Virus record (IMG/VR): IMGVR_UViG_3300034021_000225
Location: 1 to 43,857 of that record
Direction: 5' to 3' (one strand)
From: a virus
Length of the DNA: 43,857 bases
Position 1 is the stretch's first letter; each line of letters opens with the position of its first letter. Both the position numbers and the translations under genes were made by a program. Below the pieces are notes generated by a model. The model saw nothing but the letters and a program-made list of their open reading frames with translations. It did no database searches and was not told where the DNA came from. Positions 1-43,857 of the stretch are shown here, in pieces.

Positions 1-61
1 GAAAAAGAGCCAAGAAGGCAAGAGTTTCGTAGGAAACTTTAAGACCAAGAAAGGTAAGCAT
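1..61 (-). CDS. Partial copy (N-terminus) of the 66-aa membrane protein
   Basis: This is the first 20 codons of the small membrane protein whose complete copy lies at 43591-43791. It is cut only by the left edge of the linearised assembly. It is not a second gene. Confidence 0.95.
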   Translation of the reverse strand, partial: MLTFLGLKVSYETLAFLALF

Positions 62-127
62 TTGGTGTTAGCGGCCTTGACCGCGAGAAAGTTTTTTGTT
101 GCCCTTGGGAAGGCTATGTTGTCCCTG
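1..127. repeat. Left copy of 127-bp terminal direct repeat
   Basis: Bases 1-127 are identical to 43731-43857. The length equals a k-mer size commonly used by short-read assemblers, so the repeat most likely marks a circularised assembly rather than the physical terminal repeat. It cuts through two genes: the start of the 66-aa membrane protein (positions 61 down to 1, complete at 43591-43791) and the end of the 43-aa basic protein. The non-redundant genome is therefore 43,730 bp. Confidence 0.97.
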
Positions 128-4800: not shown

Positions 4801-7800
4801 TTAGAAATTCAAAATGGTTTCTATTCGTTTCTTATTGATTGCATCCAGTTCCTGTGCATTTACTTTAGGAGCAGTGGCACTTCCGCCATAAATGCCTGCT
4901 TTAAATTGAGCTGTGGTGATGTTTTTTTCACGTACTTGACTAGCAAAGTCATCCACGTTTTCAGCTTCTAGACGTGCAAATGCAACGGCCTTTGCCTTTT
5001 TAAAAGCCTTTGCAATTTCAAGATAATACCTAGGTTGAGTGGTTTCATCATTTGGATTAAATGGACGATTCTTAAACTCATCCATATCATCCTTGAACCA
5101 CTGCTGCTTGTTTAAATTAACAAGATCCTTACGCAGTCCAGCTTTATACATTTCTTTACGAACAAAGTTTTTCTGCTCTGCCGTAAGAGAAACACCTTTA
5201 TAACTATCAAGTTTATCATTCCAGTTGTAACGTGCCTTCATCAGCATGTTTTTAACCGGATCCTCTTCTTTAACAGCGACCTCAAATGGCATGTTGGCGT
5301 TCCAAACATTACCGTTGGGGTTTTTCATCTGTTGCCCAGTAAGAATGTCAATCTTGGATGGCATCATGTTTCTCAGAAATGGTGTATTGCCTTGAAACAC
5401 CCGTTGCCATTCATTATCGTATTCCCGTTGGTACGGATCAAAAGCATTGGCAAATCCCCTCACAGAACCAGACAGAGGAACTGCGGAACTAAAAGCAAAA
5501 TTTGCCATCATCTTTTCAATCTTTTGGGGTGACATATTGTCAATGTCAATGAAAGATGCTAGAGCTTCAAAGTTAGCAAAGTAAGATTTCTCTGTAAAAC
5601 TAGCAGCAATAGCAAGAGTCATTTGAGTAGCAAAGCGCTCCATGAGCACTTGGCCGCCAACATCCTCCTTGAACAGTGACGCCCATTGAGCGATATCTGT
5701 TGCAGCAGCAATAATGTTATTAAGAGGTTCAATAGCATTATAAGAGATGTAGACATTTCCGTATGGATTAAACGATCTCGGACGAATACCTAAATCTTGC
5801 CACCGTTTCCGTTCTGCTGGATCAACAGGAAGATTACCAGTAAAGCGGCCAGTAGTTCCCAAAAGAAATGCGCTAGTAAATACAAAAGCCCCAATGGCCA
5901 TTCGACCTTCAATTTCAGCCACCATCAATTCATCACCGCTTGCCACAGCATCAGCATATTTCTTGCTGAATTTATGGGTCAATGGAACAAATTCCAGCTG
6001 ATACTTCATTAGGTTAGCAGGAGTCCTAATAAAGGGAACCAAGAATTTAGCGAAGGGCACAGCCTCTACCATGCCCGAAAGCATGTTAATTGCCTTACCT
6101 GGATCGTCTTGGAACGTGCCAATTTCAGTATAAACTGCCAAACCCTTGTCAAGGATTTTACCAGTAGATGGATCAATATACTTAGAGTATTTCTCCATGT
6201 ACTTGTCCAAAAATTCAGCCCGCTGGGAAACATTAGGTGCTTCATTAAAAGCATCCATTGTGGCCATCTGAGCAATCCGTTGACGAGCAATAATGGTCTT
6301 CATGAAATCATCAGTAGAAGTCAGAAGACGACCAGGCCAGTCCATAACAGGAGATTGCCCAAAACGCATGGTAAACTTAGCAAAACCCACAGCCAATTCT
6401 TCCTGCGGATTTTTAGCCATAGTTTCCATCATAGCGATGGTCTTTTCAAGTTCAGCCTGTTCAATGATCTGCTGACTAGTTCCCGTAATAGACATACGAG
6501 AATCCCAAGTAATTTTACTGACTCGCCAGGCTTCACTCAGGGATGATGCAATTGAATTCAATCCAGCAAGACCAGCTTGAACTTGAGCTTCATTGCCACC
6601 AGGAAGTTTTCCACGAAGAGCAATAGCAGCCGGATCCAAAAACACACGAATAATACCAGAAGTGTTACGAGCTGCGGTTTTAAATCCAGACAGAATATTA
6701 TTCATAAAGATGTGTTCAGCACCCTTATGCCAAATATTAAAAGCCGCCTTGCTAAAGCGCATTGTTTTAGCAGGATCTCCTCCTGCCAATACCATAGCCC
6801 GGACTAACGTTCTGAATTCTTCTTGTGCTTGAGGGTCACCTTTACGGGAAAGGTTTTTAATATTATCGGCCCATTTTTTAACGGCACCATACGTCAACTC
6901 GTCAGAGGCTTTAATATCCTCAATAACTTGACGTTCACCAGAAAATGCAGCCTTAATACGAGCCTTAAAGCCTTGCAAAGAGGAGCCAGTATACTGAGCA
7001 CTCTCTTTATAAATGCCAAGAAGGCCAACAAACCTATCAATCAGACGATCATAATTATTGATACCACCAATGCCAGAATAGTCAAGCTCTTCAGCAGCAT
7101 AAGCAATATCATAAATCTTAGATGTGAAGTCCCCAATTAGTGCTTTAACAGCAGCAGCACCTTCCACGTTTGCAAAGGTTTGCCGACTGCCAAGATCCAC
7201 AAGTCCACCACCAGCATTAGCAATGGCTTTGAGCATCTCTTTATCACTTAGTTCTTCATCAAGATTTTTAAAGACATCAGCCACATCATTGTAGATACGT
7301 TCCGCAGCTACTTTAATCTGATCTATGGTCTTACCAGTACGCCTGGCAATGTCCTCAAAATCAATTTTGCTACTAAATTCATCAATAATAGATTTGAAGT
7401 TACCATCAAAGTTATTGATTTTATTTTGAGCATCCGTAAAGACATAGTTGCTACCACCAGATCTCAGAACACGACCAGTGCCATCATCAGCTTCTTCAAC
7501 AAGAATTTGATCAGCTACAACTTTAGAAGGTGGATCGGATTTACGGAATGTCGCTTGGGTTTCCCAATATTCACGCTTATCATCAGGATCTGCATTCCTA
7601 AAGAACTGGGCTTCTAGATCAGAGATTTCACTTTTGACATCATCAATCTCGCCTTTAATTCTCGTGATCTCATCAGCATCGGCCTCTGGATCTAGCCGGG
7701 ACAGTTGCTCATTGAGTTCTGCATCTTTATTAAGAGCAGCATTCATTTGAGTTTCGTTGGCTTCTGTCCACTTAACACGTTCCACTTCATTGTCAACTTC

Positions 7801-15827: not shown

Positions 15828-16426
15828 TATCGTGCAATCGTACGGAACGGAGTATAAGAAATATAGAAATTCTGACCCGTTTCAACGCCAAAGATGTTTA
15901 CATCAGATGTGCTTGTATCATAAGCGATACAGTTAGCACGGAGAATACCTTCATCTTGCTGGTTAAATTGGAACATTTCCTTTGATCCAACGACACTTCC
16001 AGCAAACACACGGGCAGCACGTTGAGTGATATAGTCTTTAAAGACCTGAGGAAGATCTTCAAAATCAAACAACCACACCACGTCACAACGGACAGGAACT
16101 GGATTGGTAAATTTATAAGTATGGTTTACTTTATCGTAGAGTTTGCCATCCCTTAATACGGTCTGGTATTGTTGAACATTCGAGTTCTTGTTGTCAGAGA
16201 TTTGAAGTACATTAGTGGGGACTACAATCTCGTTGTTAATATTAGGGGTAAAGGGATAGTTAACTTCGGTATTAAAGTGCCATCCTTCCCCTTGAACTTC
16301 TCGATTAACATTATCAAGAATACTCAATGCCGAGGCAATCTCTGGGTTAGCGATGTCGAGCGACACCACAGGTGCCTGCCCGATGCCAGTCAACATCTGG
16401 TTGATAGCTTGAAGTTGGGTTGTCAT
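15827..16426 (-). CDS. Tail tubular protein A (T7 gp11-like)
   Basis: 199 aa from the ATG giving MTTQLQAINQMLTGIGQAPV, which matches the conserved start of gp11 proteins. A longer in-frame ATG at 16459 exists but would run through the terminator hairpin. Conserved segments include REVQGEGWHFNTE and DYITQRAARVFAGS. The protein forms the ring joining portal and nozzle. It lies just downstream of the capsid terminator, so its level depends on read-through. Confidence 0.92.
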   Translation of the reverse strand: MTTQLQAINQMLTGIGQAPVVSLDIANPEIASALSILDNVNREVQGEGWHFNTEVNYPFTPNINNEIVVPTNVLQISDNKNSNVQQYQTVLRDGKLYDKVNHTYKFTNPVPVRCDVVWLFDFEDLPQVFKDYITQRAARVFAGSVVGSKEMFQFNQQDEGILRANCIAYDTSTSDVNIFGVETGQNFYISYTPFRTIAR

Positions 16427-30577: not shown

Positions 30578-30830
30578 CTTTCAGTACACCTTCGATGTTG
30601 CCATAGGTTTCATCGTAGGCTTCAAGACATTGCATTGCCTCACTGCCAGAAATAGCTTCCAATAGGAAGGTACACTCGGCAAAGGTACGACAAAGGAAAT
30701 CAGCAAAGGATTCAGTAATGAAATCCTCTTCCTCATTCTCCTGTTCTGCTAGCCATTCTTCTTCGTAGTTCTCCACCACAGAAGTGTGAATGCCAAGCCT
30801 TTCAGCAATGTCTGGAATTGAATAATCCAT
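30570..30830 (-). CDS. Hypothetical protein with HTH-like N-terminus, 86 aa
   Basis: The start at 30830 overlaps the RNA polymerase stop (TGATG). Residues 1-28 (MDYSIPDIAERLGIHTSVVE) have the spacing of a helix-turn-helix, followed by an acidic helical region (EEEWLAEQENEEEDF) and LCRTFAECTFLLEAISG. Negative charge is high for a DNA binder, so mimicry or protein binding is equally possible. Coupled translation with RNA polymerase suggests a role in the transcription switch (inference). Confidence 0.7.
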   Translation of the reverse strand: MDYSIPDIAERLGIHTSVVENYEEEWLAEQENEEEDFITESFADFLCRTFAECTFLLEAISGSEAMQCLEAYDETYGNIEGVLKDD

Positions 30831-33166
30831 CAGCAAAAGAAGTAGGAGGATTGTTGGACATCGTTGATGTCAAGAGTATTTAACATGACACTCTCATCAA
30901 AGTCAACCCCCAGCTGCCTGGACCAATCCTTAAGAATTGGCTGTGAGTAGATTTCGACAAACTTGTCCCGGATCGCACTGCCCATGTCATCCATGTCACA
31001 GGAACGACCCAACACGCAGTCATGTATCACGGTAAAGGGCCTGTCCCATTCAGCAAAGACCAGATGAAGCAGAGCAGCATCCAGACTGTGAATAAGATTA
31101 GGGCTTGCTGCTGTCTTGGCCTTTTGTAGGTCAATCTGTCGTTCTTCCCAATCTTTTAGTAGGTAAGAAGCAATTTGCTCACCCAATAATTTAGTCCGAA
31201 CCCTCTCCGACTCATTGCGTCGATACTCCTGAATAACGGGAAATCCAGATGGTGTTATCCACTCAATTGTTGTTGCCCCTGATTTGATGCGTTCCCCAGC
31301 AGCCTTCTGGATAAATTCCATTGACCGACAAGGACCATCAAATACTTTCCTCACACCATAACGGTAGATGGCCTTTACAATCATCTGTAATTCACCCTTT
31401 TCAAGTTCGACACCTTTGAGTTCCTGACGGATGTAATCCCTCGCACTGTTTTCCGTCACCCCGTAAGGCGTAGTCATAACAGTGCGCTTGGTTACTTTTC
31501 TGCTGATGTGATCGTGAAGATGCTCAGGAAGAATCTCCTTTGCCTTCTCCGCGACAATCTTATACCCGTCAGAAGGTTTGTCAGTGGGAACAACATTAAC
31601 CATTTCAGCAGCAGTCCTATCCAATGCCAATGCTGACAAATGTTGAAGACCTGAACAAGTAGCATCAACAGACACAGGAAGACCAGAAGTCTTCTTAGTT
31701 CCCTTGATGACACATTGATCATACTCCAACACAGCAGCAATAAAACACCAAGGTTCTTCTACTGATGACCACTCAGAGATTGTACCCTCAGGATCATTAG
31801 CAAGATGACTCAAGAAATCATGGTTCTTAACGACCCAATCAATTCTTTCATTCATTGGTGCTTTATCCAGTCCATAAGTAGTAGCAACCTGAAAGGCTAA
31901 CCACCACTCATTAACTGGTCCTTCCTCTTGAAAATAAATAAGACTCTTGTCAAAGTCTGTTCCTTGAGGACTAAGGCTAGTTGGTATTGGATATACCCTT
32001 CCCCTAAAGTCAAATGACCAGGGAATCCAGAAGGTATCTTTCTTGTACTTGTTGGCTACGTACAGGGCTTCAGTTGTCCTGTAATTCTTCTGTGCCAGAG
32101 CTGAGTTTTGATCTTCAATTTCAGTTCTCATTCTCCGATAGGCAAGTTTATCCTCTTCCGAGGCACTTTCCCATGGCTCTGGCTTTGGCGGTGGGGGCGT
32201 GGGCTCCTCCGCTCGGAACTTACCCACAGTGATGCGGTGTTCCATACAGAAGTTGGCCAGCTCAAGAACCCTGTCGTTGATTCGATAGGGCACCTTCTGG
32301 AGCAGGTTCAGCATGACGAGGGCCTTGCTGTCCTGTAATAACAGCCACCTTCTCGGAATCCTAGTCCTGATCAGCTTTGTCAGCTTCCTAAGGTCATTGG
32401 TCAGATAGCCACCTTTAAAGTCCGCTGTCCAGTCGTTTGGTTCACACAGCATGGGCCACATACAACCAGCAAACGCCTCAGCCTGCGCTAGGAGCGCCTC
32501 CTTGGCCCTTAAAAACTCCGGTTGGTACTCCAGGTAGGTCACCCGTTCGCTTGGCCCATTAACGGCCATCCTGGTGGTCACCCACCCAGTAGCAACCGAC
32601 AACCGATCCAGCAACCACCCTCCAACAAGGTGCCGAACGCTGGTAGGCCACCGCAATGGCTCAACATCATTACGACGCATCACCGCCCGGTAACGCTGAA
32701 CCTTGTAGGAATAACCTTTGTGATCGTGGATGTGTAGCCGCGCCTTGTTAAATAACTCAGGATGCTTACCACAAAATTGATCCAACATCACTTGATGGTA
32801 GACCAACGTTCCAATATGGGTAGTAGCAGCTACATAAGTAAGACGTTCAATTCTCCTTACACCAAGAATATCAAGGACACCTTTTGCTGTAATAAGAGCT
32901 AACACAGAAGGGTCACAATCCTTGATAGGTAAGACAGCCTGAGCCTTCTCCTGAACCCATCCCTGACTCACACGATGAAGCTTACTGCTGATCTCATTAG
33001 TGATAAGCTCAAGCCCCTTGTTAATAAAGGCTGACCCATAAACCGTAGAGCTAGCATAACAGCGATCTTCAGCAGTCCTAGTCCTTTCCCTAAGGCGTTT
33101 AATCGCTTCACTCCTTGCATCAAGTTCTCGCTGTAATTGTCGGGCGAGTTGCTCAGTTGTTGCCAT
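30830..33166 (-). CDS. Single-subunit RNA polymerase (T7 gp1-like)
   Basis: 778 aa against 883 in T7; the shortening is mainly N-terminal. Catalytic motifs: VDATCSGLQHLSALAL (T7 Asp537 region), RKVTKRTVMTTPYGV (Lys631/Tyr639 region) and VIHDCVLGRSCDM (Asp812 region). Also DFRGRVYPIPTSLSPQG. The C-terminus ends YFFC, an aromatic end comparable to the T7 FAFA foot. It transcribes middle and late phage genes from its own promoters; a candidate promoter lies inside this gene at 32335-32354. It starts 7 bp after the 108-aa gene. Confidence 0.97.
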   Translation of the reverse strand: MATTEQLARQLQRELDARSEAIKRLRERTRTAEDRCYASSTVYGSAFINKGLELITNEISSKLHRVSQGWVQEKAQAVLPIKDCDPSVLALITAKGVLDILGVRRIERLTYVAATTHIGTLVYHQVMLDQFCGKHPELFNKARLHIHDHKGYSYKVQRYRAVMRRNDVEPLRWPTSVRHLVGGWLLDRLSVATGWVTTRMAVNGPSERVTYLEYQPEFLRAKEALLAQAEAFAGCMWPMLCEPNDWTADFKGGYLTNDLRKLTKLIRTRIPRRWLLLQDSKALVMLNLLQKVPYRINDRVLELANFCMEHRITVGKFRAEEPTPPPPKPEPWESASEEDKLAYRRMRTEIEDQNSALAQKNYRTTEALYVANKYKKDTFWIPWSFDFRGRVYPIPTSLSPQGTDFDKSLIYFQEEGPVNEWWLAFQVATTYGLDKAPMNERIDWVVKNHDFLSHLANDPEGTISEWSSVEEPWCFIAAVLEYDQCVIKGTKKTSGLPVSVDATCSGLQHLSALALDRTAAEMVNVVPTDKPSDGYKIVAEKAKEILPEHLHDHISRKVTKRTVMTTPYGVTENSARDYIRQELKGVELEKGELQMIVKAIYRYGVRKVFDGPCRSMEFIQKAAGERIKSGATTIEWITPSGFPVIQEYRRNESERVRTKLLGEQIASYLLKDWEERQIDLQKAKTAASPNLIHSLDAALLHLVFAEWDRPFTVIHDCVLGRSCDMDDMGSAIRDKFVEIYSQPILKDWSRQLGVDFDESVMLNTLDINDVQQSSYFFC
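32335..32354 (-). promoter_or_regulatory. Candidate phage RNA polymerase promoter (copy within RNAP gene)
   Basis: The 20 bases GAGAAGGTGGCTGTTATTAC (minus strand) occur here, inside the RNA polymerase gene around codon 270 (encoding RRWLLLQ), and again exactly at 38064-38083 after the terminase gene, in the same orientation. Flanks do not match. In cyanophage Syn5 the two reported phage promoters lie in these same two places (established knowledge), although the sequence differs. Promoter function here is inference. Confidence 0.6.
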
Positions 33167-33173
33167 ACGTTGC

Positions 33174-33500
33174 TCAGGATTCAGGTAATGGTTGATGTTT
33201 AATCAGTTCCCTAGCATTACGAATGATCATAATCCTAGACACAATCTTAACTAGTTCCTGGGTACTCTCAGCCTCCTCCTCAGCTCCATCCAATCCTAAC
33301 TGTGCCAAAAGTAACTCCTCGGGGTGTACATCAGGAAGAGCAGTGATTTCTCCTGTTTCCATATCCTTTTCATGGGTAGCTAATACATCCCCGTGCGCCT
33401 CTAACCTAGACCCAAGATCAATTAATCTATCCAGACTACAATGCAACAACTCATAAAGCTGTGCCTCATAATCATCCTGCGTGTACGATTTCCAGCCCAT
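33174..33500 (-). CDS. Hypothetical acidic early protein, 108 aa
   Basis: From MGWKSYTQDDYEAQLYELL (33500) the protein is helical with an acidic C-terminal half (PEELLLAQLGLDGAEEEAES) and a final VKIVSRIMIIRNARELIKHQ helix. A longer frame begins at 33545 inside the preceding gene but looks non-native. It lies directly upstream of RNA polymerase, the position of T7 gp0.7-type host-takeover genes, but no kinase motif is visible. Function unknown. Confidence 0.72.
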   Translation of the reverse strand: MGWKSYTQDDYEAQLYELLHCSLDRLIDLGSRLEAHGDVLATHEKDMETGEITALPDVHPEELLLAQLGLDGAEEEAESTQELVKIVSRIMIIRNARELIKHQPLPES

Positions 33501-33717
33501 TAATTTGAGGATAACGTGATGCCTTGTTAAAGGCTTGATAAGCAAGAACAGTAGCTAACCCTTTCTTATTAAGGTAGCTATATTGTTTGATGTTGTTGCG
33601 TTTGGCAAGTTTTCTAAGTTGCCTCCAAGTAAGAACATCAGCAAGGTGCCCCGCTAATTGCTCTGGGTTGGGTAGGTGTTGACGGCTGGTGATACGCAAA
33701 GCGGATTCGAAGTCCAT
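33472..33717 (-). CDS. Early protein with SAP/Rho-N-like motif, 81 aa
   Basis: The central LTWRQLRKLAKRNNIKQYSY followed by LNKKGLATVLAYQ has the pattern of SAP or Rho N-terminal helix-extended-helix modules (L-x-x-L-R-x-L-A-x-x-x-x-I-x-x-Y-S...K-x-x-L), which bind DNA or RNA. The N-terminal 30 residues are coded in DNA that also encodes the end of the 68-aa gene (64-bp overlap), an unusually long overlap for this genome. Function inferred as nucleic-acid binding only. Confidence 0.7.
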   Translation of the reverse strand: MDFESALRITSRQHLPNPEQLAGHLADVLTWRQLRKLAKRNNIKQYSYLNKKGLATVLAYQAFNKASRYPQINGLEIVHAG

Positions 33718-33860
33718 TCAGGTTCAAGACGAATTGAAAGGGAAACAATTGGTTGAGTTGGGTTAAGTTCAACAATGGTCATGATAGCATGAGCCTTGGT
33801 CTCTGCCATAACACAACCACTGGCCCCATTACTGAACCAATAAGAATAAGGCTTGATCAT
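33654..33860 (-). CDS. Hypothetical early protein, 68 aa
   Basis: MIKPYSYWFSNGASGCVMAE, then AHAIMTIVEL and a Pro/Asn-rich C-terminus (PAVNTYPTQSN). It starts in an ATGA overlap with the preceding gene. Its 3' 64 bp overlap the SAP-like gene; the C-terminal tail may be a by-product of that overlap. No domain recognised. Confidence 0.62.
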   Translation of the reverse strand: MIKPYSYWFSNGASGCVMAETKAHAIMTIVELNPTQPIVSLSIRLEPEWTSNPLCVSPAVNTYPTQSN

Positions 33861-34096
33861 CGTTTTCTTTTTGCTGGTAACCTAAAGCAATATTCTAGGT
33901 GTGCTTCCTGAATCTTATTGCGGATGTGAATAATTCTCTTTTCATCCGTCATAGCAGCAACCCTAAAAATTTGTACAACTAACATTCGTTGCATCTCATC
34001 TAAAGCATCACTGCCATAGTTTTTGATGGTGTCAATAACTCTCTTTAATTCTGGTGGATAGGAATCCCAATCAGGATCGCGTGTGGATGATGTCAT
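33857..34096 (-). CDS. Hypothetical basic early protein, 79 aa
   Basis: Hydrophilic N-terminus (MTSSTRDPDWDSYPPELKRV) followed by long helices (DALDEMQRMLVVQIFRVAAM, IIHIRNKIQEAHLEY) and a basic end (RLPAKRKR). It begins on TAATG with the 52-aa gene upstream and ends in ATGA with the next gene, so it is part of a coupled early operon. Function unknown. Confidence 0.75.
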   Translation of the reverse strand: MTSSTRDPDWDSYPPELKRVIDTIKNYGSDALDEMQRMLVVQIFRVAAMTDEKRIIHIRNKIQEAHLEYCFRLPAKRKR

Positions 34097-34254
34097 TAGT
34101 GAATTAATGTGAATGGAGAACGATAGGGCATGTCCATCTTAGACAGCTTTTTGGGTTTTGGATTCTCAAGCCCTTTCAATAACTCAAGTGCTAACTCCGT
34201 TTCGCCACGCTTGATAGCAGCTCTCACCTGTTGCTTTAAGGAACTTGCCATCAT
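34096..34254 (-). CDS. Small basic early protein, 52 aa
   Basis: Read from a gap: ATGATG at 34254/34251, then MMASSLKQQVRAAIKRGETE, LALELLKGLENPKPKKLSKM and ending YRSPFTLIH; TAA overlaps the next ATG. A helical N-terminal two-thirds with a Lys/Pro-rich tail. Exact fit between neighbours supports it. Function unknown. Confidence 0.72.
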   Translation of the reverse strand: MMASSLKQQVRAAIKRGETELALELLKGLENPKPKKLSKMDMPYRSPFTLIH

Positions 34255-34355
34255 TTAGTTAGCGTGAGGTTGCGATAAACCTTGATGAGACACATCAGTA
34301 GAATTAGGGGAATGATAATAATGCTGGGGCTTACCAAGATCGGAGACGATAGCAT
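34251..34355 (-). CDS. Alternative-frame membrane peptide, 34 aa (possible)
   Basis: A second frame nested in the 52-aa membrane gene: MLSSPILVSPSIIIIPLILL, then MCLIKVYRNLTLTK, i.e. a strong hydrophobic helix with a basic C-terminal end. Its TGA overlaps the ATGATG of the next gene. Because the host gene is itself hydrophobic in another frame, chance is a serious alternative. Listed for its membrane-protein-like composition and its fit with the next start. Confidence 0.3.
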   Translation of the reverse strand: MLSSPILVSPSIIIIPLILLMCLIKVYRNLTLTK

Positions 34356-34413
34356 AGGTGATCGTGAGAGGGATTAGGAACAAGAATAGATTGGTGATTG
34401 ATTTAATCATCAT
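34255..34413 (-). CDS. Small membrane protein, 52 aa
   Basis: Starts MMIKSITNLFLFLIPLTITY then AIVSDLG, one transmembrane helix (about residues 5-24), followed by a polar His/Ser/Pro tail (PQHYYHSPNSTDVSHQGLS). The ATGATG start overlaps the end of the acidic 36-aa gene. Early small membrane proteins in T7-like phages often target the host envelope; no function is assigned. The longer frame to 34491 is a shadow of the acidic gene. Confidence 0.6.
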   Translation of the reverse strand: MMIKSITNLFLFLIPLTITYAIVSDLGKPQHYYHSPNSTDVSHQGLSQPHAN

Positions 34414-34513
34414 TGTCGGATTCTTCGTCGTCTTCATTGTCACTAGCATACGCATCATCCTCTGCCCGTTCATACCATTCATCAAGTTCATAAGTGTTGA
34501 GAAAGTAGCTCAC
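34403..34513 (-). CDS. Small acidic early protein, 36 aa (GTG start)
   Basis: GTG at 34513 overlaps the preceding stop (GTGA). The product reads VSYFLNTYELDEWYERAEDD, then AYASDNEDDEESDNDD: over a third is Asp/Glu. Early acidic proteins of phages can mimic DNA (T7 Ocr is the classical case), but at 36 residues this is only a suggestion. The overlap at both ends supports it as real. Confidence 0.62.
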   Translation of the reverse strand: MSYFLNTYELDEWYERAEDDAYASDNEDDEESDNDD

Positions 34514-35118
34514 TTGATTAGCCTCCGATAGGTAACCCAGGTAACAGCCTGAACTTGTGTTGGGGACAATTTAACACCGCAGAGATCCACACTACGCTTC
34601 GATACTAATTGGTAGGCGCGTTGAATTGTCTCAAACAATTTAGGCGTTATGCTTGGGGTTTTGGTGGTAGGGATACGTTCCCCGATAAAAATAGCGTAGG
34701 CGTGACCGTCAACACAGACAGCGTTCTTATCACCCATAATGCATCTGTAAAAAGCAACAACCTTCTGCCCATTAAGTATTCCCGCTATGGCCTCAGTGTC
34801 TACTGATTCTAAGCTGAGAATAGCAATGGCCTTCTGTTTGTTCTTATTGAATGTACATACCTTAATCGCATTATAATCACCCCCAATGGACCATGTTTTG
34901 ATCATAGCCTCAGCATCAATACAATTCCTTTCCCATTTGTTATTTGGGGAAAGTGCTGCGATGACTCCTACGGCTTGGCCCATTGTGAGACCTTCATAGG
35001 CTTGAATAAACCGCAATGCTAAATCAGAGGCACGTTTATACCAATAGAGACCTTCAATAATGTCTGCCTGGCTTGCTAGTTGTAACATGCCGGAAATGTG
35101 GCGGGTGTTGGCTCTCAT
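34510..35118 (-). CDS. HhH-GPD (endonuclease III)-like DNA glycosylase-fold protein, 202 aa
   Basis: The layout matches E. coli endonuclease III from memory: GVIAALSPNNKWERN (residues 51-65) with LLSAQATDxxVN; FNKNKQKAIAIL (90-101) with YNSKAENIIKTC; ILNGQKVVAFYR (114-125) with the hairpin LPGVGRKTANVV; AVCVDGHAYAI (133-143) with IAVDTHIFRV; and QAVTWVTYRRL with the closing helix. Lys119 and Asp137 are 18 residues apart, the same as catalytic Lys120 and Asp138. The hairpin glycines are partly lost and no iron-sulphur cluster cysteines are present. It could excise damaged or modified bases, or bind DNA without catalysis. It starts 5 bp after the 66-aa gene. Confidence 0.6.
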   Translation of the reverse strand: MRANTRHISGMLQLASQADIIEGLYWYKRASDLALRFIQAYEGLTMGQAVGVIAALSPNNKWERNCIDAEAMIKTWSIGGDYNAIKVCTFNKNKQKAIAILSLESVDTEAIAGILNGQKVVAFYRCIMGDKNAVCVDGHAYAIFIGERIPTTKTPSITPKLFETIQRAYQLVSKRSVDLCGVKLSPTQVQAVTWVTYRRLIK

Positions 35119-35123
35119 TGGTT

Positions 35124-35324
35124 TTAGTAGAGTTGCGAAGGTGTGATCGTGGAATCATTAATCTCATTAATGCAAGTGAAGCCTAGATCCTCCATAATAG
35201 TGAGAGTTGTAGGAAGTAAAGTTTTAAATCCGCTCAGCTCACAGAGTAGCTTGGCAGTAGCGTTGACAGGATAGCAACGGATGTTGCCGTAGCTAGTGGT
35301 GATGCGGAAGGTTGCGGTTTTCAT
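35124..35324 (-). CDS. Hypothetical early protein, 66 aa
   Basis: MKTATFRITTSYGNIRCYPV, then a helix (NATAKLLCELSGFKTLLPTT) and strand-like end (GFTCINEINDSTITPSQLY). An alpha-beta sandwich of this size recurs among phage early proteins, but no family is recognised. Starts 5 bp after the preceding gene. Confidence 0.7.
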   Translation of the reverse strand: MKTATFRITTSYGNIRCYPVNATAKLLCELSGFKTLLPTTLTIMEDLGFTCINEINDSTITPSQLY

Positions 35325-35329
35325 AATGA

Positions 35330-35518
35330 TCAGCAGCCGATAGAGTAGGTTACAGCAATACGCTCAGGATCATCAATAGCAATGTTACTATTGCGAGCAT
35401 TCAATTGCCGAACAATAATAGTAGCCTCCTCAGGTGTTGCTGCTGATTGATACCATGTTGTGCGTGGTTCTTTGCCCATGTTATAATGAACATGTTGCAT
35501 GATTTTGTAGAATGTCAT
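35330..35518 (-). CDS. Hypothetical early protein, 62 aa
   Basis: MTFYKIMQHVHYNMGKEPRT, then YQSAATPEEATIIVRQLNAR and an end rich in Ile/Asp/Thr. It is preceded by leader A (35519-35599) with two hairpins and a CA-rich tract instead of a Shine-Dalgarno sequence. No family recognised. Confidence 0.7.
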   Translation of the reverse strand: MTFYKIMQHVHYNMGKEPRTTWYQSAATPEEATIIVRQLNARNSNIAIDDPERIAVTYSIGC

Positions 35519-35599
35519 TTGATTAGGTGTGTGTGTGTGTTGGGTAACCTTAATGGTTACAGAAAGGGGACTCTATTACCTGTCCCCAATGTGTAACGA
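35519..35599 (-). promoter_or_regulatory. Intercistronic leader A: double hairpin plus CA-rich tract
   Basis: 81 bp between two early genes. In mRNA order: hairpin 1 GGGGAC/GTCCCC with 10-base loop, linker TTTCT, hairpin 2 GTAACC/GGTTAC with 5-base loop, then about 20 nt of CA repeats reaching the ATG. Leader B (35912-35992) is also exactly 81 bp with both hairpins at the same positions but different paired bases. Possible roles: mRNA processing or protection, attenuation, or translation control. Confidence 0.7.
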
Positions 35600-35911
35600 T
35601 CAGGATGCAATAGCTTCCATTTCATTGACCATCTGTTGGGCTTGGCACCATAGTTCAACGGTAGCCCATACCATGTTAACCTTGAGGGTTGTAATAGTTG
35701 AACCACCGTTACGATCCACAAAATCAATCATGGACATCTCGCAATCATTCAGGTAAGAATAGATTTCTTCTTCATACTGATCGAAAAATTCTGCCACTTC
35801 ATAGTTCCAGATGAAGCTATTAACACCGCCAGCACAGCCATGGTTGGCAATGTCGCGGATCTCGTCTGCATCTGTGAAGCGATCGGTGAGGGCAGTGTGA
35901 AGGTTAGTCAT
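35600..35911 (-). CDS. Acidic early protein of a widespread phage type, 103 aa
   Basis: MTNLHTALTDRFTDADEIRD, IANHGCAGGVNSFIWNYEVA, then FFDQYEEEIYSYLNDCEMSM. The ANHGCAGG segment followed by acidic helices resembles a small family seen in many phages (DUF7222-like, from memory). Role unknown. It is preceded by leader B and followed by leader A, which suggests individually regulated expression. Confidence 0.75.
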   Translation of the reverse strand: MTNLHTALTDRFTDADEIRDIANHGCAGGVNSFIWNYEVAEFFDQYEEEIYSYLNDCEMSMIDFVDRNGGSTITTLKVNMVWATVELWCQAQQMVNEMEAIAS

Positions 35912-35992
35912 TGTGTTGTGTGTTGGTGTGGTTGTGTGTAGCTTAAGTGCTACAGGAAGGGCAGGCGATTAACTCTGCCCTACTTGTAACAA
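35912..35992 (-). promoter_or_regulatory. Intercistronic leader B: double hairpin plus CA-rich tract
   Basis: 81 bp. In mRNA order: hairpin 1 GGGCAG/CTGCCC with 10-base loop, linker TTCCT, hairpin 2 GTAGC/GCTAC with 6-base loop, then a CA-rich tract up to the ATG. Relative to leader A, hairpin 1 differs at two base pairs and both changes keep pairing (G-C to C-G twice), evidence for a conserved RNA structure. Confidence 0.7.
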
Positions 35993-36112
35993 TCAGCAAC
36001 CTTTAGCAAGTGCCAGAGCTGCCATCACTTGGCAACGGGTGAAGTCATCCATTGTTTCGTTAGCGAGGCGATCTTCAAGCCATTGAATGTGGGCGGCGAT
36101 GTTGTCGGTCAT
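35993..36112 (-). CDS. First early gene, 39-aa protein
   Basis: Not long enough for usual gene callers. ATG at 36112 gives MTDNIAAHIQWLEDRLANET, then MDDFTRCQVMAALALAKGC. An amphipathic helical pair with acidic N-terminal half. It is the first gene after the candidate host-type promoters (36136-36194) and is followed by leader B, so it is expected to be expressed very early. Function unknown. Confidence 0.7.
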   Translation of the reverse strand: MTDNIAAHIQWLEDRLANETMDDFTRCQVMAALALAKGC

Positions 36113-36135
36113 TGGTTTGTGATTGAACTGAGCTA

Positions 36136-36194
36136 ATGATGGCCCCTGGCCCTGCCAGTGTCAAGGCTTTAATGATAAGTGTTGCTAATGTCAA
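36136..36194 (-). promoter_or_regulatory. Candidate host-type early promoters
   Basis: Minus strand carries two perfect TTGACA boxes (36189-36194 and 36159-36164). The second is followed after 17 bp by CATCAT (36136-36141; 4 of 6 to TATAAT), placing a start about 15-20 bp before the first early ATG. TTATCATT occurs twice between and beside the boxes. Host sigma-70-type polymerase must start early transcription in T7-like phages. Strength and exact start are unproven. Confidence 0.5.
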
Positions 36195-36533
36195 TGATAA
36201 GCAAACCTAATGGGCACAGATTTTATATAAAAAGAACACGCGTACTACACGCGCACGCGTTACCTATGTAGCACTGGTGCATTTGTACTCCTATCCCTGT
36301 CCAAATCCTTGCGTATCTGTCTTTCAAGCAGTGACGCAGCCCAGTGATAGCAAGGGGTTTGGCCCTGTCCAGAGCCTGGTTGGACACGGTTTGGACACGA
36401 TGGGCCGGGGGTGGCCAAGAATTCCGGCGAGACGGGGGGGCATGGGGGTGATTCGGCAACCGTACATGCGTATCAGGGGTTCAGAAATTTGTGTCAAAAA
36501 TCATGAGTGACACTTAGAAGCCTCCAGAAGGGC

Positions 36534-36551
36534 CCTCCGAGAGGCCGGAGG
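36534..36551 (-). terminator. Hairpin downstream of the thyX operon
   Basis: Perfect inverted repeat CCTCCG-agaggc-CGGAGG located 11 bp beyond the stop of the 99-aa membrane gene. No T-run follows on the minus strand, so intrinsic termination would be weak; it may serve as an RNA 3'-end protector. Confidence 0.35.
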
Positions 36552-36562
36552 TGCTACGTCAC

Positions 36563-36862
36563 CTACGGAGGGTCGGAGGGGTCTTCCTGGACCGCCCAGG
36601 GCGCAGTGAGACGCATCTCGTCAAAAAAGTCACTACCTGATTCGGAATAAACAGGAGGCGACACAACAGGAGTAGGTGGGTCAATCTTTTCATATTCCTC
36701 CAGGGCAACGTCAACGGTATTGTTAATTCTTGTTTTGATGGTCCTTTCCTCAACCCACACAAGGAATCCAAGAAGAAGAAACGAGGCCCACTTCGGTAGA
36801 CCCCGCCTCAATGCACGATAGAGCGTTTTAAACTCATTAAAAATTAATTTATCACTTCCCAT
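36563..36862 (-). CDS. Small membrane protein downstream of thyX, 99 aa
   Basis: One hydrophobic segment (KWASFLLLGFLVWVEER, about residues 24-40) preceded by a basic amphipathic helix (TLYRALRRGLPK) and followed by a Pro/Ser/Asp-rich acidic tail (PPTPVVSPPVYSESGSDFFD). The basic side before the helix predicts an N-in topology. It overlaps thyX by 19 bp. Possible holin, envelope or superinfection protein; no evidence chooses between these. Confidence 0.72.
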   Translation of the reverse strand: MGSDKLIFNEFKTLYRALRRGLPKWASFLLLGFLVWVEERTIKTRINNTVDVALEEYEKIDPPTPVVSPPVYSESGSDFFDEMRLTAPWAVQEDPSDPP

Positions 36863-37518
36863 AGGTTAGGCATCTCCTTGTTGAGGATTTGATAGATCTG
36901 TTCAGCAATCTGTCGATGCTCAAGCTGTGTTTCCGGGGAACGTCGTACGGAAAGGTAATGGATCCAACTCCTGATTGTTCCCGACATGTAAAGCCGAGTA
37001 GGACTGTTCATTGGGAGGATCTTTCTTGCTGATTCCTTTGCAATACCCGAGCTGAGCATCTCCTGGTAGAGGTGTTCAAGATCCTCAAACACACTGGAGA
37101 TGCGTCGATAGAACGCCTGTGTTTCTTCTTTGGAAAGATCATCATGGCTGGCTTGACGGTTCTTCAGGTCCTGACGGCGGAGATGCGGAATCTCCAGACC
37201 ACCCAGCCCATCCACAGTCGAAGCATAGCGTTGGGAAAACTCCTGAAAGGAAAAGCTCCGATGCCTAAGAATCTGTGCGCTTATGTCTCTTGTTGTGTTG
37301 ATCTCTACGCAGGCACTTGCCATTTCAAACGGAGACCAATGGTTATGATTAACAAGATACCTGAGTAACTTCCCTGTTGTATCCAACGTCTGTTGGCCTT
37401 TGGGATTACTGACTCTTGCACAATACTCAATGGTGTGTTCTGCTGCTGGTGTGATCCAGATAAGGCGTACCTTAGAAGCGTGAGGAGATTCAAATGGTTG
37501 TTTAATGTCGGGTGCCAT
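36844..37518 (-). CDS. thyX: Flavin-dependent thymidylate synthase ThyX
   Basis: 224 aa. The ThyX signature RHRx7S is present as Arg85-His86-Arg87 ... Ser95 in RHRSFSFQEFSQRY, and the C-terminal RLYMSGTIRSWIHYLSVR motif binds substrate and FAD. It converts dUMP to dTMP using methylenetetrahydrofolate, FAD and NADPH, complementing the ribonucleotide reductase genes. ThyX is known from some cyanopodoviruses such as P60. It is preceded by the 599-bp AT-rich region and coupled to the membrane protein gene. Confidence 0.95.
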   Translation of the reverse strand: MAPDIKQPFESPHASKVRLIWITPAAEHTIEYCARVSNPKGQQTLDTTGKLLRYLVNHNHWSPFEMASACVEINTTRDISAQILRHRSFSFQEFSQRYASTVDGLGGLEIPHLRRQDLKNRQASHDDLSKEETQAFYRRISSVFEDLEHLYQEMLSSGIAKESARKILPMNSPTRLYMSGTIRSWIHYLSVRRSPETQLEHRQIAEQIYQILNKEMPNLWEVIN

Positions 37519-37606
37519 TGATAGAGGAAACAGTAGTGTTAGTAGTATTAGTAATAATAGTTATTATTGTTATTTTTTCTTTCTATAACAGCTGTATCGT
37601 AATAGG

Positions 37607-37637
37607 TCGCTATGTATCACATCGCTACCTATCGCTA
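37607..37637. repeat. TCGCTA iterons beside an AT-rich tract
   Basis: Three exact TCGCTA units at 37607-37612, 37622-37627 and 37632-37637, with ATAGGT/ACCTAT forming an outer inverted repeat (37602-37631 region). They abut the most AT-rich part of the window. Such an arrangement is typical of replication origins or protein-binding clusters; function is inferred. Confidence 0.45.
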
Positions 37638-37726
37638 TACATTCTTCCTTTAAGAATAATAAAAAAGAATATTAATGTTAATATTATTAATATTATTATT
37701 AATTAAAATAATTAACAATATATCCA

Positions 37727-37749
37727 ACAGTAGGCTTCGCATCTACTGT
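37727..37749. other. Perfect hairpin ACAGTAG/CTACTGT
   Basis: A 7-bp perfect inverted repeat with a 9-base loop (GCTTCGCAT) inside the AT-rich region. No T-run on the minus strand. Could be a packaging, nicking or RNA-end structure. Confidence 0.45.
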
Positions 37750-38063
37750 CTAATATATATACCCCCTTTCCCTTTTCTGTTTGTCGTCCCCCTTGGGGTC
37801 TTGGGCTAGAAATGTACAGGCGCTTCGCTACCTACATAGGAAAGAGGGGAGATTTGTTGTCTTCCCCCCTTCCGTGTCCATACCCCATACCCGTCCCTCT
37901 GGGTTGATAAAGCGGACGCAGTACGCGCCCTAGTTGACGGGATGGTGTTTCTGAAAATCAGCGATTTCGAGAGAGGGAGAAGACCGTAAGGAGAGACCCC
38001 CCTCTATGGTCTCCCCCCTCAGCTTGTCGCTGTTTCCACACCCAAGGAGCACCACTTCCCTGG

Positions 38064-38083
38064 GTAATAACAGCCACCTTCTC
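38064..38083 (-). promoter_or_regulatory. Candidate phage RNA polymerase promoter (copy near right genome end)
   Basis: Second exact copy of GAGAAGGTGGCTGTTATTAC, 35 bp beyond the terminase stop and pointing into the AT-rich region. The first is at 32335-32354 inside the RNA polymerase gene. Location parallels the right-end promoter of Syn5 and T7 phi-OR, which have been linked to replication or packaging rather than gene expression (family knowledge). Inference for this phage. Confidence 0.6.
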
Positions 38084-38117
38084 TAGGGGCCAGTCATGGC
38101 AAGGGTTTTCAGGAAAT

Positions 38118-39869
38118 TTAGATCCACGAAACGATGGGCCCTTCTTCGTGGGTGATGGGCTCGTCAAAGGTGCTTCCCGCGACCAGCAGATCTGTGGCCA
38201 GGGTAGGGGCATTGAGGAACCCCTCTACCATATTCTGCCATTGCTGACGGGAATGGTCGATAGCCTGCTGTTGGGCCGAGATGGCCAGCACATCCTGAAA
38301 GTACTTCACGCCAAGGGCCAGGGCGTCTACCCGGTCATCGTGCTTTACAGCCCCCTTTTCCCGACACATGCGGGTAAGTTGGTACATCAACATTCTCGGA
38401 AGCCGCTCTTCGGGGGCCATTTCCGGGTTAGAGGTGTAATCCCACTGGATGAGGCGCTGGTCGATAACCAGGCGATGCTGATTGAGGACGGGCTCCAAAG
38501 TATCAATAATTCTGTCCTCCTTCCTTGTCGTGGCGCGTACCTCCTCAAAGTTCATACCAACCTTCATTTCGGTGGCGTGTTTCCGCATAAGCTCCATAAT
38601 GGCTCCATCACCAAAGTTAGATTCAATGAGGCAGGAGGACGCGCCATACCGTTTAGCCCTCCTAAGAATCTCACAAAGGGTCTTGTCGGAGTAACCGTCT
38701 TGACTAGCAAAAATGTCCCGAATAAAGAGGAACCCATTGATCTGTGAGAGAACTACGGCAACGGTTTCGTCCTTTCCTCGTCCGGACGGATCAACGGCCA
38801 CAATAGTTTCCCCGTAACGGACAAATTCCGAAACAGCCTTAGGCCGGTGCCATCTATCGCCAGGGAGAGCGACAGCAGGCAGATCCAGCAAAGTCTCTTT
38901 ATCGGCACCCCAGACAAGATCAGATGGACCCTTTTCAAGATCCAAGGGGAGAACTGAGAAGTCACTAAGCTTGAGGGGGAACTTGAGGGCGTCACTAAGG
39001 CTGGTATCCAGCATGAATTGAAGCATGAAGTTTGATCGACTCATGCTTTGTTCCCGTTCAAGGAGGTTAATCTCCGAAAAGCGGGTATCTGTTGGGGTCC
39101 AGCTTAGGGTGTCATGTCCCTGTGTGTCGATGTCTGCTTGTAGTTGTGGGGCAAGAATGTCTTCATACCCAACAAGATTCTTTGGATACCTAGCTGGCCA
39201 AACAAAGGGTCGGTAGTTGCGTTCCCTTAGGGTTCGATAAATTGTAAAGGTAGTCTGAGGGGTTCCCAGAAACACAATTCGTGAGTCCCCCTTGGGAGTC
39301 AACACTGATTCCCCTTCGGTTACGAGTTGAAGAAGCTTCTCGCGCATCATGTCGGTGGCGGAGTTTGAGGGGACCTCCACGTCATCAAAGACAATCAGGT
39401 CAGCACGAGAACCAGTAAGCTGGCCGGTAATACCAACACTCTTTACGGATGGGCTTTGGGCAGGCCGACACCCAGCAATGTCAAAGGAGACTCGTGACCA
39501 CCGTTGGTCATCATCCACGGGTCGCATGTGGACCATCCAGTCAAACTCAAGGATACACTTTTGACAAAAGATGGTAAAGTCATCTGCCCGCTGTTTACTT
39601 GCCGAAACAACAAGGATCTTTTTGTCTCTGTCGTTCCAGAGTGTCCACAACACAAAGGCAGCAGCAATCCACGATTTACCCAGACCACGAAACGCTTGGA
39701 TCTGTAGACGCTTTGGGCCGTTTTGAAGGTATTCCGCAATGGCAAGTTGAGCCCTTGTTGGCCGAGGCAGGTCTAGCGACTTCCATACAAGGGAAAGAAA
39801 AACAGGGAATGAATTTGTAATACGCTCTTCTAAGGACCGCGAAGGGGCCTCTAGGGGGGTGGGTGCCAT
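38118..39869 (-). CDS. terL: Terminase large subunit (T7 gp19-like)
   Basis: 583 aa from MAPTPLEAPSRSLEERIT; the upstream 35 codons are a shadow. T7 gp19 is 586 aa. ATPase: RGLGKSW (Walker A), ADLIVFDDVE (Walker B with catalytic acid), FLGTPQT (coupling). Nuclease: VAVDPSGRGKDETVAVV, CLIESNFGDG, and KHDDRVDALALG. It cuts concatemers and pumps DNA into the prohead. It is the last gene before the non-coding end region. Confidence 0.96.
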   Translation of the reverse strand: MAPTPLEAPSRSLEERITNSFPVFLSLVWKSLDLPRPTRAQLAIAEYLQNGPKRLQIQAFRGLGKSWIAAAFVLWTLWNDRDKKILVVSASKQRADDFTIFCQKCILEFDWMVHMRPVDDDQRWSRVSFDIAGCRPAQSPSVKSVGITGQLTGSRADLIVFDDVEVPSNSATDMMREKLLQLVTEGESVLTPKGDSRIVFLGTPQTTFTIYRTLRERNYRPFVWPARYPKNLVGYEDILAPQLQADIDTQGHDTLSWTPTDTRFSEINLLEREQSMSRSNFMLQFMLDTSLSDALKFPLKLSDFSVLPLDLEKGPSDLVWGADKETLLDLPAVALPGDRWHRPKAVSEFVRYGETIVAVDPSGRGKDETVAVVLSQINGFLFIRDIFASQDGYSDKTLCEILRRAKRYGASSCLIESNFGDGAIMELMRKHATEMKVGMNFEEVRATTRKEDRIIDTLEPVLNQHRLVIDQRLIQWDYTSNPEMAPEERLPRMLMYQLTRMCREKGAVKHDDRVDALALGVKYFQDVLAISAQQQAIDHSRQQWQNMVEGFLNAPTLATDLLVAGSTFDEPITHEEGPIVSWI

Positions 39870-39892
39870 AAGGATACCTAAAGTGGGGTGGA

Positions 39893-39919
39893 GGGGCCAA
39901 GGAGACGATCCTAGACCCC
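39893..39919 (-). promoter_or_regulatory. Hairpin in the terminase leader
   Basis: On the minus strand GGGGTCTAGGA pairs with TCCTTGGCCCC with one mismatch (about 10 pairs, loop TCGTC). It lies about 23 bases upstream of the terminase ATG and 8 bases beyond the preceding stop. No T-run follows. It may act as an mRNA processing or stability element. Confidence 0.45.
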
Positions 39920-39927
39920 TGTGGTGA

Positions 39928-40062
39928 CTATTTACGCTTCTTGCTCTTCCCAGCTTTGGAAAGGGCAATAGCAATGGCTTGTTTTTTGGGACGGCCTTCC
40001 TTCATCATTTTGCTGATGTTGGAAGACACGGCCTTATTTGAAGATCCGCGAGATAGGGGCAT
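39928..40062 (-). CDS. Small basic protein upstream of terminase (SRGSSxKxVSSNIS type), 44 aa
   Basis: [20 protein letters not shown], then [20 protein letters not shown] and KKRK. The pattern SSNIS-x-L/M-M-KEG[11 protein letters not shown] is recurrent in small phage proteins (DUF6496-like, from memory). It may bind DNA or terminase. It was found by translating the gap before terminase; its stop is TAG. Confidence 0.8.
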
Positions 40063-43031: not shown

Positions 43032-43586
43032 TTAGGTTATTTTTCGAAAGGTTATATACCAGCCACTGCCATTACCCTCAACCATCCACCGTTTAGACCA
43101 ATTTTTCCACGTATAGGGGACATATTTACCCCCAACACCGGGTTTTAGGTATCCACCGTTGGCATTATCCATTTCACCATAGGGGTCATGGCAAATAACA
43201 TGGGTATCAGTAATTCCAACCACGAGCATCCAGTGTCCACCGCCCTTAGGAGCATAAGCAGGACCGTGGTGAAGGATTCCACAACCCACAGGAAAGCCCT
43301 TTTCCAGCTCTTTTTCAAGAGTTGTACGGGTTCCATTCTTTAAGAAGGATGCTTTGACCTTATAATGAGAACAAGCACGGATCTGTGCAATGGTTTGGGT
43401 GGTATCTCCATACCGCAACACAGTACGGAGATAGTCATCATCGGCATTAGACCCCAAAAGGGCTGTTGGCTGGAGGTATTTTACTGCCATAGCACACGTA
43501 CTAGAAAAGCACATGCGGTCCCCATGACTGGTAGCACTATCAGTTTGAAGATAGTATTGAGGAATTGCCAACGTAATATTAGTCAC
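43032..43586 (-). CDS. C39-like cysteine peptidase, candidate endolysin, 184 aa
   Basis: Papain-like C39 family layout: Cys26 in RMCFSSTCAMAVKYL, His118 in KGGGHWMLVVGI and Asp134 in ICHDPYGEMDN. The end YTWKNWSKRWMVEGNGSGWY is typical of C39_2 proteins. In cyanophages such proteins are candidates for peptidoglycan hydrolysis. No signal peptide is seen, so release would need a holin; a small membrane protein gene lies just upstream. An internal peptidase role cannot be excluded. Confidence 0.8.
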   Translation of the reverse strand: MTNITLAIPQYYLQTDSATSHGDRMCFSSTCAMAVKYLQPTALLGSNADDDYLRTVLRYGDTTQTIAQIRACSHYKVKASFLKNGTRTTLEKELEKGFPVGCGILHHGPAYAPKGGGHWMLVVGITDTHVICHDPYGEMDNANGGYLKPGVGGKYVPYTWKNWSKRWMVEGNGSGWYITFRKIT

Positions 43587-43590
43587 AACC

Positions 43591-43791
43591 TTACTTAAGG
43601 ATGGAATCTTTGACCTTTTGAATTTTGTCGTCTTCCGAACGGAAGGGCTTCAACGAATTAACAGCGTTGAGCAGTAGTTGAACAATGCTATTCTCATTAA
43701 GTTTGCTGTTACCAACAACTTCAGAAGCAAGAAAAAGAGCCAAGAAGGCAAGAGTTTCGTAGGAAACTTTAAGACCAAGAAAGGTAAGCAT
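43591..43791 (-). CDS. Small membrane protein, holin-like candidate, 66 aa
   Basis: MLTFLGLKVSYETLAFLALF, LASEVVGNSKLNENSIVQLL, then a charged C-terminus (SEDDKIQKVKDSILK). One hydrophobic helix near residues 12-26. The sequence type (FLGLKVSYETLAFLALF) is familiar as a conserved cyanophage protein (recall). Adjacent to the C39 peptidase, it could be a holin, but a virion role is equally possible. Its N-terminus lies in the terminal repeat. Confidence 0.72.
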   Translation of the reverse strand: MLTFLGLKVSYETLAFLALFLASEVVGNSKLNENSIVQLLLNAVNSLKPFRSEDDKIQKVKDSILK

Positions 43792-43857
43792 TTGGTGTTA
43801 GCGGCCTTGACCGCGAGAAAGTTTTTTGTTGCCCTTGGGAAGGCTATGTTGTCCCTG
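43731..43857. repeat. Right copy of 127-bp terminal direct repeat
   Basis: Identical to bases 1-127. Confirms that the sequence closes on itself; the right copy should be dropped when the genome is treated as a circle. Confidence 0.97.
43798..43857 (-). CDS. Partial copy (C-terminus) of the 43-aa basic protein
   Basis: Last codons of the gene at 68-199 repeated by the assembly overlap. Not a separate gene. Confidence 0.95.
   Translation of the reverse strand, partial: QGQHSLPKGNKKLSRGQGR

Follow-up and report, generated by a model that had tools for sequence, protein, structure and literature searches.

Paired lineage-specific words inside the RNA polymerase gene and after the terminase gene as probable promoters of T7-like cyanophage RNA polymerases

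The closest described counterpart of the element reported here is the promoter system of phage Syn5, whose RNA polymerase recognizes ATTGGGCACCCGTAA and whose genome is said, in the available text of the report, to carry only two copies of it (PMC3950665). Searching the Syn5 genome (NC_009531), we located one copy at 4929, at offset 809 of the polymerase gene (codon 270, position 3), and one at 44797, 5 nt beyond the end of the terL coding sequence (44791), in keeping with the preliminary description of our locus, which placed the Syn5 promoters in the polymerase gene and near the right genome end. Here we analyze a viral DNA of 43,857 nt, IMG/VR record IMGVR_UViG_3300034021_000225 (the window, taken at its full length), in which the 20-bp word GAGAAGGTGGCTGTTATTAC occurs exactly twice, both times on the minus strand. 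Based on its Syn5-like placement, the recurrence of such pairs in 38 of 41 genomes or contigs and the covariation of the word with the specificity loop of the polymerase, we consider it very probable that its two copies serve as promoters for the T7-like RNA polymerase that the phage itself encodes. The features concerned are, in window coordinates:

32335-32354, minus strand: putative promoter copy 1 (P1), within the RNA polymerase gene; +1 predicted at 32335 (plus or minus 1-2 nt), with -19 to -1 at 32336-32354
38064-38083, minus strand: putative promoter copy 2 (P2), non-coding, after terL; +1 predicted at 38064 (plus or minus 1-2 nt)
30830-33166, minus strand: T7-like single-subunit RNA polymerase, 778 aa (Pfam RNA_pol, 8.1e-78), the presumed reader of both copies
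38118-39974, minus strand: terminase large subunit (terL), with P2 after its stop codon; the gene may actually begin at an internal start near 39833
36844-37518, minus strand: ThyX thymidylate synthase (thyX), downstream of P2

No further match to the word is present in the window at up to 3 mismatches, and 100 shuffles of the window gave an expectation of 0 matches. The first and last 127 bp of the window (1-127 and 43731-43857) are identical, an overlap of circular assembly and not necessarily a true terminal repeat, and in the resulting 43,730-bp circle direct 20-mer pairs are expected 0.00087 times, in line with the earlier estimate of about one in a thousand genomes. Besides the pair, the only exact direct repeats in the circle that reach 15 nt are this overlap and repeats within a tandem-repeat gene at 473-1588. 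The pair itself was found as first described, in position, strand and orientation. Its flanks differ, the exact match extending by zero bases on either side, although a 49-nt block comprising the repeat and its upstream side is 71% alike between the copies.

Copy 1 begins at codon 271, position 3, of the polymerase gene (offset 812), and copy 2 lies 34 nt past the terL stop codon, ahead of thyX. In a protein alignment, codon 271 of the window and codon 270 of Syn5 are homologous, with the two polymerases sharing 44.8% identity. The window agrees with the Syn5-type architecture in its T7-like polymerase, its two copies on the same strand, the homologous codon and the copy after terL, and it also shares with Syn5 a downstream thymidylate synthase and the loop of a hairpin following the second copy. 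The words differ, being ATTGGGCACCCGTAA in Syn5 and GAGAAGGTGGCTGTTATTA in the window, where the Syn5 word has 4 matches with 3 mismatches (shuffle mean 0.99), none of them at either site; the same placement with a different sequence, as proposed in the preliminary description, is therefore what we observe. A second difference is that a terminator-like hairpin with a T run follows P2 in Syn5, whereas none was found in the window. With promoters of the T7 and SP6 type the putative window promoter shares an upstream recognition block and an AT-rich block before +1, read by the specificity loop of a single-subunit polymerase, but there are two copies instead of many. The T7 promoter TAATACGACTCACTATAGGG has 0 matches in the window at up to 3 mismatches, and the GGTG core of the window word presumably resembles the SP6 promoter.

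For comparison across relatives we gathered 41 genomes or contigs, each with the codon-271 region and the end of terL: the window, 19 named phages picked from 60 listed of 2,802 matching records, and 21 viral contigs, of which 7 come from 20 terL contigs (of 80) that were searched for a polymerase and the other 14 from a separate set. Many members of this set are related (close pairs include L045/L046, L016/L017 and S-SBP1/S-RIP2), and the counts are not independent. When the polymerase gene is compared with the 400 nt after terL, the top-scoring ungapped match starts within -9 to +5 nt of codon 271 in 38 of the 41, with words that are lineage-specific. For example, P60, P-SSP7, S-CBP1, S-CBP2, S-CBP3, S-CBP4, S-CBP42, S-RIP1, S-RIP2, S-SBP1, S-TIP28, S-TIP37, SS120-1, 9515-10a, P-SSP2, P-SSP10 and S-SRP01 have the pair at the same two places, each with its own word. 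The mean match score at the site is 18.5, while the rest of the gene, with the site masked, has a mean of 10.4 and a maximum of 12.5; the site outscores the rest in 38 of 41 genomes and exceeds that maximum in 37. When each gene copy was compared with all 41 tails, its own tail was best or tied best in 35, and was beaten by one other tail in S-SRP01, S-RIP1, L016 (by L017) and L048 (by L021), the tails of L016 and L017 being nearly the same, as are those of L048 and L021. Whole-genome records contain exactly two copies (at up to 2 mismatches, both strands) in 18 of the 19 counted, namely the window, Syn5 and 17 others, with S-B28 skipped and with S-CBP3 represented by a draft of three unordered pieces. 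These results support the view that the two-promoter architecture is conserved while the promoter sequence drifts.

Outside this set, the more distantly related T7-like Pelagibacter phage HTVC019P has no pair, and in Aquamicrobium phage P14 the best match scores 13.0 (background maximum 12.5), off the homologous codon and beyond one extra gene, a marginal result that we provisionally treat as negative. A search for terL in the records of ten contigs with a polymerase gene gave none in 10 of 10 cases, probably because they are fragments. Separately, the terL matches in S-CBP42 (NC_029031, 25275-26940) form two overlapping segments and include a stop codon in frame, which may reflect a frameshift or a sequencing error. 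We found no description of such pairs outside Syn5 in the open-licence literature searched, as far as its available text goes; the original Syn5 paper (JBC 2013) may mention some.

The polymerase itself varies together with the word, in a region that can be delimited as follows:

31118-31228, minus strand: specificity loop, codons 647-683, placed by alignment with T7 RNA polymerase; residues 657, 663 and 666 track promoter bases

Loss of both copies beside a near-identical polymerase had been named in advance as evidence against a promoter, and relative L001, whose polymerase is 94% identical, is such a case on its face, but both of its copies read GAGAAGGTGCTCTTTATTAC, with the same four changes in each, and 9 of the 18 residues at 651-668 of its specificity loop differ from the window. 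Because both copies share the four changes and the loop has changed too, this case speaks for the promoter. In L003 and L010, each copy differs from the window by 2-3 bases, and their own copies differ by 2 and 1, respectively. Among the six relatives of at least 90% identity, residues 651-668 take 49 of 324 amino-acid differences, where 7.5 are expected.

We then related promoter bases to residues in 31 distinct polymerases (at least 70% identity to the window), anchoring the internal promoter and scoring 489 variable columns for each base. Three of the original 34 (L029, L056 and L031) were dropped for unclear register, L080 and L030 were placed in register manually once the data had been seen, and the base/residue rule was first spotted by eye; the counts below come from related sequences and not independent events, and the ranking among columns serves as the control. 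For base -9, residue 666 ranks first of the 489 columns, pairing R with C (8/8), Q with T (10/10), L or V with A (6/6), K with C (1/1), A with C (2/2), S with C (2/3) and D with T (1/1). At -10 the leading column is residue 663, where E goes with G and Q with C and only L022 deviates, and residue 653 of the loop leads for -7. Residue 657, aligned to T7 N748, accompanies C at -10 when it is N (16/16) and G when it is R (4/6, L022 and L044 being the misses); it is the second-ranked column for -12 and the eighth-ranked for -11. In T7, according to the available text of PMC5937735, N748 contacts -10/-11, R756 contacts -9 and Q758 contacts -8. In the alignment, the counterpart of residue 666 is T7 L757, which directly neighbors both R756 and Q758. 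The non-template pairings R/C and Q/T correspond to Arg-G and Gln-A on the template strand, which is familiar base readout.

Several observations weigh against the two-copy promoter reading. The pair is not the best match in S-B28, L025 and L041, of which S-B28 keeps a degraded pair with a 2-nt indel (its own tail is beaten by seven others), L025 a short imperfect pair and L041 hardly any (its own tail is beaten by fourteen), and the match in L039 is weak, with a score of 10.5 that is barely above or at background. In S-CBP2 (NC_025455), a third copy with 2 mismatches is present at 16389 on the plus strand, inside the ribonucleotide reductase gene. The top column for -11 and -12 is 274, which is itself encoded by the promoter, and no loop column leads for -8, -6 and -5. 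Finally, L022 violates the rules for residues 663, 666 and 657, and L044 violates the rule for residue 657. In 60-residue windows, the L022 polymerase is 88-100% identical to L023/L025 up to residue 600 and then 97-100% identical to L013, and that of L044 shares 92-100% identity with L042 as far as residue 420 but 62-88% beyond it. These two genes (L022 4555-6888 and L044 78-2423) look recombinant between promoter and loop, whether naturally or by chimeric assembly; recombination of this kind, if natural, would part the enzyme from its promoter.

Other explanations of the pair can be judged against the same evidence. The word could be a site for a sigma factor of the host or for a regulator encoded by host or phage, since two identical non-palindromic sites could bind a regulator, but we found no sigma-70-like match overlapping either copy and rejected sigma-70 recognition for that reason. 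In addition, among close phages the word changes in parallel with loop residues of the polymerase, which a host factor would not cause, leaving this explanation very unlikely. The direct repeat, together with the integrase gene annotated in Syn5 two genes after the polymerase, would fit a site of site-specific recombination or attachment, whether for an integrase or for dimer resolution. The phage attachment site (attP) described for T7-like cyanophages, as far as the available text of PMC8776855 goes, is a 39-bp match to a tRNA-Leu gene directly downstream of the integrase, and the window pair is unlike such sites. No tRNA was found in the window, the three open reading frames (ORFs) between polymerase and endonuclease genes that we tested comprise one Gp2.5-like single-stranded DNA-binding protein and two without a PHROG match, and the Syn5 pair is a defined promoter in the available text of PMC3950665. 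An attachment site was rejected on the lack of a tRNA in the window, the unlikeness to attP and the results for the three ORFs, and we regard it as exceedingly unlikely.

One copy is coding, and gene conversion could keep two near-identical copies, so that protein-coding constraint, functionless conversion and chance also have to be weighed. The expectation given above led us to reject chance, the encoded residues vary by lineage (IPRRWLLLQD in the window versus GPLGTRKQGD in Syn5), and neither chance nor conversion agrees with a pair that recurs at matching positions in 38 of 41 genomes or contigs and covaries with the loop; this origin appears barely conceivable. Covariation of bases with loop residues is not expected from a regulator site, an attachment site or a conversion tract, and these are unlikely for that reason.

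If the word is the promoter of the phage polymerase, the early region, including the polymerase gene, would be transcribed by the host polymerase. The specificity loop of the phage enzyme would then read bases at about -12 to -9, and the enzyme would melt the AT-rich TATTA end and initiate on the final base of the repeat or no more than 1-2 nt away from it. Transcription from P1 would cover approximately 38 kb (measured as distance in the circle) of replication, structural and packaging genes, up to terL. Since the start lies after codon 271, P1 RNA would be unable to encode a complete polymerase, and the enzyme would for that reason probably not amplify its own synthesis. P2 would serve the right-end segment, from thyX towards the genome junction, with an RNA that opens with a conserved hairpin, and might also serve replication or packaging in the manner of the T7 right-end promoters. 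Downstream of P2 we find a thymidylate synthase in the window, Syn5, P60 and S-SBP1, and two small ORFs and talC in P-SSP7.

Examination of the region after P2 identified the following structures:

38041-38064, minus strand: P2 hairpin at the predicted 5' end of the transcript, CCCAGGGA-AGTGGTGC-TCCTTGGG, with an 8-bp stem (one G-U) and an 8-nt loop
38028-38040, minus strand: linker TGTGGAAACAGCG, conserved, following the hairpin
37973-38020, minus strand: predicted second hairpin, G-rich; no T run found in the window lineage and not a clear terminator

The stem of the P2 hairpin opens at 38064, the predicted start base of P2. We aligned 27 of 29 distinct cores, all chosen for AGTGGTG, leaving out L102 (bulge) and L126 (unlike stem); this motif is present in 66 of 105 tails, with some of the others having a variant loop and others a different structure. 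In the alignment of the 27 cores, 98.6% of cells in the 8-bp stem are paired, compared with 70.5% when shuffled and at most 64.8% when slid, and the covariation score of the stem is 0.933 against 0.360 (standard deviation 0.034) in shuffles, with pairing and score each reached by 0 of 500 shuffles. Weaker contrasts are given by the number of stem pairs changed on both sides (all 8, against 6.6 shuffled, reached in 83 of 500) and by the 18 pair types (15.8 shuffled, reached in 36 of 500). The AGTGGTGC loop follows none of 38 polymerase-gene copies, that of Syn5 being trailed by another short inverted repeat. Searching viral sequences with the hairpin pattern gave at least 112 new loci, 107 with the stem and 102 with terL ending no more than 400 nt upstream among the matches listed, and bacterial genomes gave at least 118 loci, mostly by chance, of which 7 had at least 6/7 stem pairs and 3 an upstream terL among the matches listed. 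At this position a P-SSP7-like group carries a different loop, AGGGTGGAC. Folding of the 110 nt that immediately follow P2 gives a z of -3.65, and Rfam gave no match above the gathering threshold for window 37500-38200 or Syn5 44700-45000.

As a separate observation, several tails (L041, L045, L046 and L104-L111) have words of the GGTACTT/GGTGCTTGC type after terL without the AGTGGTGC hairpin and with G-rich DNA instead, and L116-L118, L120 and L123 are further tails of this type.

Under a strict rule, a terminator-like second hairpin with a T run was found in 14 of 34 loci of the Syn5/P60 type and 5 of 38 of the AAACAGCGGTCA type, while window-type loci (0/15) and those of the AACAGCGGTA type (0/10) had none, with a shuffled expectation of at most 0.1 (single-base shuffles); a looser search gave candidates in most tails, including P-SSP7 and S-SBP1, whose loop type lies outside the strict count. 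A small RNA as a general product, for which a terminator is expected after every P2 hairpin, was rejected because under the strict rule the terminator is missing in the window-type and AACAGCGGTA-type loci. Depending on the phage, the product of P2 may be a short structured RNA or a structured leader. Our wider proposal is that, across many T7-like cyanophages, P2 drives a structured RNA not described before, either approximately 40-100 nt long or forming the 5' leader of the transcript of the right end, and that the promoter of these polymerases sits at a fixed codon of their own gene, and to this combination we give slightly less than even likelihood. Such an RNA would consist, in order, of the start base, the covarying stem with its AGUGGUGC loop, a UGUGGA..GCGGU linker and, in some lineages, a terminator hairpin, and could act late in infection, e.g., as a replication primer, a packaging-linked RNA or a leader controlling thyX or talC. 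The available text of the open-licence literature searched holds no description of the P2 hairpin.

The hairpin could instead be solely a DNA element, i.e., an origin, a concatemer-processing site or a packaging site that does not act as RNA, which would compete with the structured RNA and leave the promoter assignment untouched. P2 is close to the right genome end, and at the right end of T7 promoters are linked to replication and packaging. The G-U pairs in the stem, seen in 8 of 27 cores at one position, favor RNA, as does the terminator-like hairpin with a T run added in some lineages, and a DNA-only role appears rather unlikely to us.

Among the 60 listed of the 2,802 matching records, the closest named polymerases are all from cyanophages, and the host of the window virus is for this reason presumably a cyanobacterium. 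Other genes in the window, all on the minus strand, encode a 371-aa protein with seven copies of a repeat of about 46 aa (473-1588; spacing 138-150 nt; weak WD40/PD40 beta-propeller matches), a 184-aa protein with a Peptidase_C39_2 match (43032-43586) and a DUF7178 protein between the polymerase and thyX genes (34510-35118).

Prediction of the cognate promoter has been called the critical limit for the use of new single-subunit RNA polymerases (PMC11475235). As given in the available text of that 2024 screen, 8 of 26 enzymes worked, all 16 with low identity to T7 in the DNA-binding domain failed, and the predicted promoters were AAAATTCTTCAAGTTTACAA for P-SSP7 and CACTTCCACTCAACCAACCG for S-CBP42 (PMC11475235, Table 1). 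The paired words found here differ from these tool-based predictions, reading AACCCCTACGTATA/CAGGGG in P-SSP7 and CATCTGGCCCATGTAA/GCAGGGAGA in S-CBP42, where the slash marks the predicted start. In nearly all the T7-like cyanophages sampled, the polymerase gene would hold its own promoter at a fixed codon, with the copy after terL as a check on it, which yields a predicted promoter for each of 17 named isolates other than Syn5, these two among them. The P2 hairpin offers a new lead on how these viruses end transcription, replicate or package. The natural series of loop and promoter variants would allow the recognition code to be read and tested, and, if our reading is true, both polymerase-promoter pairs and this code could be read from metagenomes.

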